DNA from: Acidobacteriota bacterium
GTDB taxonomy: Bacteria; Acidobacteriota; Terriglobia; Acidiferrales; UBA7541
Length of the DNA: 32,414 nt
Reading direction: 5' to 3'
NCBI GenBank assembly: GCA_016201215.1
Contig: JACQDH010000187.1
Span: forward strand, 1 to 32,414
Of this stretch, positions 12,278-27,433 are shown one piece after another (position 1 is the first letter of the stretch; each line of letters opens with the position of its first letter). Both the position numbers and the translations under genes were made by a program. The notes beneath the pieces were generated by a model. That model was given only the letters and a program-made list of their open reading frames with translations, was not told where the DNA came from and made no database searches.

Positions 12278-13437
<1,160 letters not shown>

Positions 13438-13438
<1 letters not shown>

Positions 13439-13878
13439 TGACGGTGGACGTTCGGGAAGCAAAGGAAGTAAAGGACGTGAAGGAAGCTGAGGAAAGGGCA
13501 GCGCGCGCTGGTCCCGTCAGGAACTATACAGACCTCTTGGTCTATAAGCAGGCGTATCGCCTGGCATTGGAGGTTTCTGAGCTTGCGCGCACCTTCCCCC
13601 GGCAAGAACAGTACGAACTCGGCCGCCAACTCCGCAATTCGTCACGATCCGTCGCGGCGAATATCGTGGAGGGTTGGGCGAAACGCAACTCTGCTGCTGA
13701 GTTCAAGAGGCATCTGCTCATCGCCAACGGTGAAGCTTCTGAGACAAGGTTTTGGCTCGATTTGGCCGCTGATGAAGGCTGCGCGCGGAAAGAGCGATGC
13801 GAGACATTGAAGGCTGGCTACGGCAAGTTAGGGATGATGATTCACAATTTATGGAAGGAATGGCGGAAGTTTCCGTGA
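13438..13878 (+). CDS. Four-helix-bundle protein of the S23 / 23S rRNA intervening-sequence (IVP) family
   Basis: A 146-residue protein. From residue 29 it matches the S23/IVP pattern: [60 protein letters not shown], then a long helical tail. Homologues occur inside 23S rRNA intervening sequences and as free-standing genes, and the fold is shared with the Avd accessory protein of diversity-generating retroelements; the function is unknown. The first 28 residues (with [14 protein letters not shown]) are not family sequence: they are translated from the left purine-rich repeat. The ATG at 13438 overlaps the sucC stop (TGATG); a TTG three bases earlier is the alternative. The gene splits sucC from sucD and is bracketed by inverted repeats, which suggests an inserted element (inference). 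Confidence 0.87.
13455..13484 (+). repeat. Left purine-rich inverted repeat flanking the IVP gene
   Basis: A 30-base GA-rich tract built of GGAAGT/AAAGGA-like words. It matches the reverse complement of 13887-13916 in 26 of 30 positions. It lies inside the 5' end of the IVP reading frame and encodes its Glu/Lys/Val-rich N-terminus. Confidence 0.6.
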
Positions 13879-26590: not shown

Positions 26591-26621
26591 TTTCTGCGCG
26601 CGCGGAATTTCCGCGCAGAAA
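26591..26621. terminator. Strong inverted repeat after nusB
   Basis: TTTCTGCGCG (26591-26600) and CGCGCAGAAA (26612-26621) are perfect 10-bp arms around 11 bases; an alternative inner stem GCGCGG-AATTT-CCGCGC also fits. It lies 65 bases after the nusB stop. No T-run follows, so termination is only probable. Confidence 0.4.
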
Positions 26622-26652
26622 CAAACCGCTCGTGGGATCGCGAATATTCCCC

Positions 26653-26714
26653 AGTACTAAAGTACTACGGAAAAATTGTTACCGGAGCAGCACAAGCCAC
26701 AACTTTCCGGAAAG
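26653..26714. promoter_or_regulatory. Two palindromes upstream of the heptad-repeat gene
   Basis: AGTACT-AA-AGTACT (26653-26666) is a pair of self-complementary hexamers, and CTTTCCGGAAAG (26703-26714) is a perfect 12-bp palindrome. Both lie within 125 bases of the ATG at 26777, in a place suited to operators. I see no convincing sigma-70 boxes, so another sigma factor may be used. Confidence 0.4.
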
Positions 26715-26776
26715 CGTCGGGTTCCTCGAGTGTAGGCTGATGGAGGCCGCAAAAATTCTAAGAAGGAGAACCGAAG

Positions 26777-27373
26777 ATGGACGTGGACAAGATTGTGCGA
26801 CGCAGCTTGACGGGATTTGCCCTGGCCGGCCTGTTGGCAGTCGGCGGGTGGGCCCAAAGCCAGGGAGGCTCGGGTACCGGTTCCGAATCTAGCAAGCCGA
26901 CTACTCCGCCCGCCGCATCCGGCGACGTCAAGCAGGACACCAAGGAGATCCGCCAAGACCGGCGCGATATCCGGCGCGACCGCCGCGACATTCACAAGGA
27001 CAAGCAGGATATTCGCAGTGACAAGCGGGATATCCGCAGCGACCGGCGCGACGTGCGGGCCGACCGCCGCGACATTCGCAGCGACAAGCGCGACATCAAA
27101 GAAGACAAGGCCCAGCTCAAGTCCGACGTCGCCAAGTACGGCAAGAACAGCGACCAGGCCAAGGCCGACCGCAAAGATATCCGCTCTGACCGCAAGGATA
27201 TCGCCAAGGACGCGAAGGACGTTCGTGCCGACAGGCGCGACATCCATGAAGACCGCAAGGACCTGAAGGCAGATGTGAAGGATCTCCACAAGGACCGCAA
27301 GGACATCAAGTCCGACAAGCGCGACCTGCGGCACGACAAGCGGAAGCGCCGCCACGACCGCGCAAGCCAGTAA
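26777..27373 (+). CDS. Secreted polyampholyte of 20 in-register seven-residue repeats, function unknown
   Basis: A 198-residue protein. Residues 1-26 form a signal peptide (basic start, FALAGLLAVGG core, cleavage after GWA before Gln27). A Ser/Gly/Pro/Thr linker (27-49) leads to residues 50-189: 140 residues that keep an exact 7-residue phase, with consensus D-(I/L/V)-(R/K)-x-D-(R/K)-(R/K), for example DIRSDKR DIRSDRR. Residues 120-133 break the motif but not the phase. On a helical wheel Asp1 and Asp5 form one stripe, Arg3, Arg6 and Arg7 the opposite face, and a single hydrophobic residue per turn-pair a seam. This is not a standard a/d coiled coil. An AAGGAG lies 8 bases before the ATG, and a strong terminator follows. 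It is monocistronic. I do not know its function; stress protection or surface interaction is conjecture. Confidence 0.85.
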   Translation: MDVDKIVRRSLTGFALAGLLAVGGWAQSQGGSGTGSESSKPTTPPAASGDVKQDTKEIRQDRRDIRRDRRDIHKDKQDIRSDKRDIRSDRRDVRADRRDIRSDKRDIKEDKAQLKSDVAKYGKNSDQAKADRKDIRSDRKDIAKDAKDVRADRRDIHEDRKDLKADVKDLHKDRKDIKSDKRDLRHDKRKRRHDRASQ

Positions 27374-27398
27374 ACCCGGAAACTCCCTTGCCAACAAG

Positions 27399-27433
27399 AA
27401 GGGCCGATCCGAGAGGATCGGCCCTTTTCTTTT
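27399..27433 (+). terminator. Rho-independent terminator of the heptad-repeat gene
   Basis: A 12-bp perfect stem (arms 27399-27410 and 27415-27426; GGGCCGATCC within the left arm) with a GAGA loop, running into TTTTCTTTT. It is the clearest intrinsic terminator in the window. It lies between convergent genes and may also serve phzF from the other side. Confidence 0.9.

Follow-up and report, generated by a model that had tools for sequence, protein, structure and literature searches.

The window, a stretch of 32,414 nt of Acidobacteriota DNA, carries a gene whose exported product is very probably folded, as judged from modelling and from arm lengths in relatives, into a hairpin in which two helices of equal length run antiparallel. 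The structure and regulation of this hairpin gene are well supported by computation: an export signal, the hairpin, the equality of its arms, purifying selection and the conservation of a promoter were all recovered. This promoter is of the ECF type and had been missed in the initial annotation; it is the best clue to the function of the gene. The best explanation overall, to which we give about an even chance, is that of an ECF-controlled periplasmic polyampholyte hairpin which serves as a protective electrostatic shield. In the bacterial envelope, the protein is probably a protective component that has so far escaped recognition.

The gene and its heptad repeat

The gene at 26777-27373 (plus strand, 198 residues) is real and occurs as a single copy in the host assembly, which is 81% complete. 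Residues 1-26 (26777-26854) form a signal peptide, assigned by eye and by a simple hydrophobicity rule, with cleavage expected after ...GGWA; this bears out the earlier description of the protein as secreted. A hydrophobic leader peptide is present in nearly all relatives and often ends with A-x-A-Q. It is followed in the window protein by a low-complexity linker of Ser, Gly, Thr and Pro (residues 27-48, 26855-26920), for which the block pLDDT in AlphaFold2 is only about 47-61. The palindromes reported before in the leader are indeed found (at 26591-26621 and 26647-26672), and so is the strong terminator, which is an intrinsic terminator at 27397-27428 (plus strand) with a stem of 14 pairs, a loop of 4 and a T-rich tail. 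An Rfam scan of the window detected no family. On the minus strand, an open frame of 246 aa (26657-27397) spans the whole hairpin gene; it is probably not a gene and exists because of the codons of the repeat.

From residue 50 onwards the sequence has a period of seven, with a lag-7 identity of 46% compared to 2-7% at lags 1, 2, 5, 6, 8 and 9, and the heptad D-(I/L/V)-(R/K)-x-D-(R/K)-(R/K), with positions counted from 0 to 6, occurs well above shuffled controls. The second Asp (position 4) is found in 19 of the 20 heptads and an acidic residue at the first position in 17. While the periodicity described for residues 50-189 is thus real, its supposed perfection is not: three consecutive central heptads (113-119, 120-126 and 127-133, QLKSDVA KYGKNSD QAKADRK) are off-pattern and contain a turn including Y-G-K-N-S. 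The opposed acidic and basic faces are clearly present, as the periodicity at 3.5 residues per turn reaches 0.23 for acidic and 0.26 for basic residues, with shuffle maxima of 0.10 and 0.11; that of the aliphatic residues is also strong and exceeds every shuffle. Acid-base pairs at i/i+4 are scarce within the 140 residues (6 basic-to-acidic, none acidic-to-basic), in line with the view that this is not a salt-bridged single helix. It also holds that there is one aliphatic residue per heptad, so that the repeat is no classical coiled coil, but the aliphatic line can be interrupted by Arg. Among the heptads of the relatives, position 1 is Ile, Leu or Val in 78% and Arg in 13%, position 4 is Asp in 94% and position 5 is Arg or Lys in 69%. 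Variability is highest at position 3, where 13% are His.

Where equivalent heptad places carry the same residue, the codons are identical in 64.7% of the cases, with 65.3% expected from codon usage alone. Synonymous codons are thus as divergent as codon usage permits, and the repeats did not arise by recent tandem copying. Purifying selection acts on the gene, with a dN/dS of 0.34 against a same-genus orthologue and of 0.07-0.19 among closer pairs. That the frame is spurious, for example the shadow of a long antisense frame, or a product of low-complexity drift, might be suspected because the other strand also carries long open frames. However, the signal peptide, promoter, terminator and orthologues, a dN/dS well below 1 and the randomised synonymous codons argue against this, and we give it practically no chance.

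The predicted hairpin and the equality of its arms

AlphaFold2 was run twice, with the single sequence as an alignment-free control and with 37 relatives, and the same two helices (49-121 and 126-197) were obtained in both cases. Mean pLDDT was 84 without the alignment, and block pLDDT is 91-98 across most of both arms. The predicted arms, both made of heptads, are encoded by 26921-27139 and 27152-27367 (plus strand). They are connected by a turn at residues 122-125 (GKNS, 27140-27151) that is part of the loop motif KYGKNSDQ, and a loop (Y/F)G-x-x-S-x-Q is conserved in the family, with other loops that contain Gly elsewhere. The best full-length matches in Foldseek are antiparallel two-helix coiled coils such as YscO (4mh6, TM 0.83 by target), the p85 inter-SH2 region, the N-domain of RipA and SMC arms. 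Probabilities were near 1, but E values were 0.03 or worse with none at or below 0.001, so these proteins are shape analogues and not relatives. The two long helices and short turn of a coiled-coil hairpin are borne out by the model, the shape matches and the equality of the arms. Such a hairpin has hydrophobic residues at both core positions, a and d, of each heptad, which is not the case here, as only position 1 is aliphatic.

The high variability of position 3 suits the outer position f, which would place position 1 at d, 5 at a, 4 at g, 0 at c, 2 at e and 6 at b. The register would then read g=Asp, a=Arg/Lys, b=Arg/Lys, c=Asp/Glu, d=Ile/Leu, e=Arg/Asn and f=variable. In an antiparallel helix pair, g faces g' and e faces e'. 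With this pairing, the acidic edges of both arms would lie on one face and the basic edges on the other. Of the 106 heptads with Arg or Lys at position d (1), 43 have neutral residues at both e and a (2 and 5), compared to 40 of the 703 with a hydrophobic residue at d; this hints at a constraint on the local charge pattern. Mirroring of polar heptads across the two arms was not significant (16 matches, 14.5 expected).

Profile searches resulted in 80 named loci. The gene occurs in 45 of the 89 genomes of the host's own family, and a phylum-wide search of the Acidobacteriota revealed about a dozen members with clear relatives. As no copy was detected in about half of the host-family genomes, the gene is not generally essential. 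Carriers, many of which are soil bacteria, belong to groups 1 and 2 of the Acidobacteriota, to Chitinophagaceae and other Bacteroidota, Gemmatimonadota, Ralstonia and other Burkholderiales, Rokubacteria, Nitrospirae and Deltaproteobacteria. No Pfam model fits the family, and NCBIfam matches are far below cut-off; those to SMC and HmpF reflect generic coiled-coil composition. The family probably has no model in these libraries because its low complexity hides members from ordinary searches. A tblastn search of plasmids with the window and Ralstonia proteins gave no match, possibly due to low-complexity filtering, and a scan of genome contigs with one protein as query confirmed no relative. Six low-complexity repeat frames from Acidobacteriota (L007, L008, L011, L018, L022, L029) match by composition only and appear to be unrelated.

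We segmented 69 non-redundant proteins into heptads. Most of them have two arms and one loop, and 61 are usable as single hairpins. Three proteins (L093, L112, L140) contain two tandem hairpins each, while the loop is absent from four (L016, L044, L058, L101). In the 61 single hairpins, the arms are 22 to 84 residues long, and their length varies widely even between near relatives; L155 has arms of about 119 and 116 residues. The two arm lengths are strongly correlated (r = 0.84, n=61; r = 0.90 for the 52 relatives with a single break), with a median difference of 5 residues. When the loop is placed at random, r is -0.59 and does not exceed -0.36 in 5000 trials. The correlation is about 0.9 separately in the groups from Acidobacteriota, Bacteroidota and Gemmatimonadota; it is lacking (r = -0.07) in a Proteobacteria/mixed group of 11 sequences with a narrow length range.

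Random phase breaks in homologues, which the initial annotation had named as a sign of mere drift, are not what is seen: phase is intact inside the arms of 52 of the 61 relatives. Of the 61, 40 show a phase jump of 2 at the loop and 10 show none. One register through both halves is thus a trait of the window protein that is shared by a minority of relatives only. Because the phase usually jumps at the loop while the arms stay equal, it is the equality of the arms and not the continuous register that is conserved.

These data bear on the initial proposal of a single long bipolar rod of 140 residues which self-associates side by side. The window protein does hold its heptad register through the loop, and L044 and L101 have no loop. 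The predicted structure is helical, as had been anticipated; however, both models turn at 122-125, and nearly all relatives have a central loop and equal arms. We thus regard the single rod as very unlikely and retain the two-helix hairpin.

Another alternative is a desiccation protectant similar to LEA proteins or hydrophilins, which would be mostly unfolded in water, become helical on drying and stop envelope proteins from clumping. It would fit the many soil hosts and a composition that is strongly hydrophilic (GRAVY -1.65 for the whole protein, -2.0 for its mature form, family mean -2.1), with less than 1% aromatic residues and almost no Cys. As judged from the GRAVY value of -1.65, the hydrophilicity index is above 1, as in hydrophilins; however, the Gly content of 5.1% (whole) or 3.5% (mature) is below the limit of 6% that hydrophilins exceed (PMC7448490). 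In addition, there is no match to a LEA Pfam model, repeats are heptads and not 11-mers, and equal arms imply a folded hairpin, so that we consider this alternative improbable.

Promoter and genomic context

Upstream of the hairpin gene, AAC (26701-26703) is followed after 17 nt by GTT (26721-26723), giving a putative ECF-type promoter at 26701-26723 (plus strand). For ECF promoters, an AAC core in the -35 element (PMC8791391) and a spacer of 16-17 bp (PMC6767563) have been described, and both features are found here. The pattern shared by the family is AAC(T/C)T-N15-GT(C/T), that is AAC, 17 bases and GTC or GTT, and lies mostly 55-95 nt ahead of the start codon. It was found in 48 of 102 upstream regions from the family, a count which overstates the independent evidence because these regions are related, while other spacings gave 0-5 cases and shuffles about one. 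Outside the core clade, it is present in 18 of 69 regions. The pattern precedes 35 of 79 family genes and only 6 of 573 neighbour genes, and one of these six neighbours adjoins an ECF sigma gene. It is spread over Acidobacteriota, Bacteroidota (L117, L128, L088), Ralstonia (L106) and a deltaproteobacterium (L116), and is absent from about half of the relatives. A sigma-70-type site was not found upstream of the window gene. When four genomes were searched with the strict pattern, no wider regulon emerged, and the only prominent matches with a plausible start were at genes of the family.

In four loci (L116, L117, L105, L088), an ECF sigma gene is located 93-552 bp from the hairpin gene, and in L116 it is followed by zf-HC2 and DUF3106 genes. 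In L105 and L117, a likely regulatory unit lies next to the hairpin gene, within up to 1.5 kb upstream: a divergent cluster in which an ECF sigma gene is accompanied by a putative anti-sigma-like gene and a small LTXXQ-like exported gene. Taken together, we are fairly confident that the hairpin family is under ECF sigma control, and the window copy may well be so too.

Transcription may be subject to a second level of control. The palindrome AGTACTAAAGTACT (26653-26666, no strand assigned) is a candidate operator for a gene-specific regulator. The match to AGTACTNNAGTACT is unique in the genome itself and in one genome of the same genus, and in both genomes the palindrome is located 35 nt upstream of the -35 element. 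In four relatives (L031, L032, L040, L045), GTAC dyads occur 25-26 nt upstream, which is closer by roughly one turn of the helix.

In the host's own family, the hairpin gene is located between nusB and a convergent phzF-like gene (names judged from sequence). This context is conserved in that family only and explains nothing about the function, and neighbours are different in group 1 Acidobacteriota and in Ralstonia. Elsewhere in the window (13435-13878, plus strand), an ORF resembling S23-type four-helix bundles was noticed by eye between sucC-like and sucD-like genes; the S23-type family is known from insertions in 23S rRNA genes. In six Bacteroidota-type loci (L075, L080, L086, L095, L098, L102), the hairpin gene is adjoined by a beta-barrel-like exported gene from one uncharacterised family, which is co-directional and 8-145 bp downstream in five of them; one of these genes has a weak match to Gcw_chp, below cut-off.

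This barrel-like neighbour and the arms, which remain equal as they change in step between about 4 and 17 heptads, would fit an envelope spacer in which arm length sets a distance. Under ECF stress control, bipolar hairpins might stack with the acidic face of one on the basic face of the next and so build filaments or sheets in the periplasm. If so, evolution would tune the reach of such a strut by gaining or losing heptads in both arms together. However, a lipobox, a membrane anchor or a peptidoglycan-binding domain was not seen, and length varies widely even among near relatives; this modular strut is doubtful, both as a spacer and in its stacked form.

Proposed function and comparison with known systems

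The export, the envelope-stress-type promoter, the extremely hydrophilic but folded and bipolar hairpin and the absence of recognised catalytic or anchoring motifs suggest that the protein protects the envelope or is part of its structure. We propose that the gene is transcribed alone from the ECF-sigma-type promoter under the influence of the gene-specific upstream operator, which implies that the protein is made under envelope stress. It would be exported, most likely to the periplasm, where it may be abundant and would fold as one antiparallel hairpin. This polyampholyte would form a two-sided plate with acidic edges (c, g) on one face and basic edges (b, e) on the other. The basic face may bind acidic surfaces such as lipopolysaccharide, nucleic acid or acidic unfolded proteins, and the acidic face basic surfaces or a second hairpin. 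The protein would thereby act as a periplasmic electrostatic shield or holdase, a mechanism that we put forward tentatively.

The same charge pattern might instead serve as a buffer for cations or polyanions, with Asp stripes and His binding metals or with the basic face mainly binding lipopolysaccharide or extracellular DNA. In favour of this, the Asp positions 0 and 4 neighbour position 3, where His occurs, and the net charge is positive (median +8). On the other hand, His is a minority at that position, acidic and basic residues nearly balance, and no metal transporter is prominent among recurrent neighbours. We thus consider a buffer unlikely and prefer the protective shield.

The family spans many Gram-negative phyla, and its conserved promoter offers a direct and cheap handle on function. 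Because of the equal-arm rule, it is also a clean test case from nature for how charge patterning can keep a helical hairpin together when only half of the usual hydrophobic core is present. The fold class is already known, while the sequence family, the equal-arm rule, the half-hydrophobic heptad and the promoter were not found in the libraries and papers searched; a literature search on the motif and the hairpin family returned nothing relevant.

Several known systems share some of these features. Spy/CpxP (LTXXQ) chaperones are also small, exported, helical and linked to envelope stress control. However, the hairpin family would be under a different regulator, and none of 38 members matched LTXXQ (PF07813). 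In L117, a separate and weakly LTXXQ-like gene is found close to the ECF gene. LEA group 3 proteins and hydrophilins are likewise highly charged, repetitive and amphipathic, and differ in their 11-residue repeat, their higher Gly content and the lack of a hairpin architecture. ER/K single alpha helices are also charged, helical and poor in hydrophobic residues, but their dense i/i+4 salt bridges are missing here, and charges are segregated to opposite faces of a hairpin. The closest structural resemblance is to YscO, p85 inter-SH2 and SMC arms, which also consist of two long helices and a short turn. Any sequence relation to them is undetectable, and the hairpin family is set apart by a single aliphatic residue per heptad, Asp at c and g, and basic residues at a, b and e.
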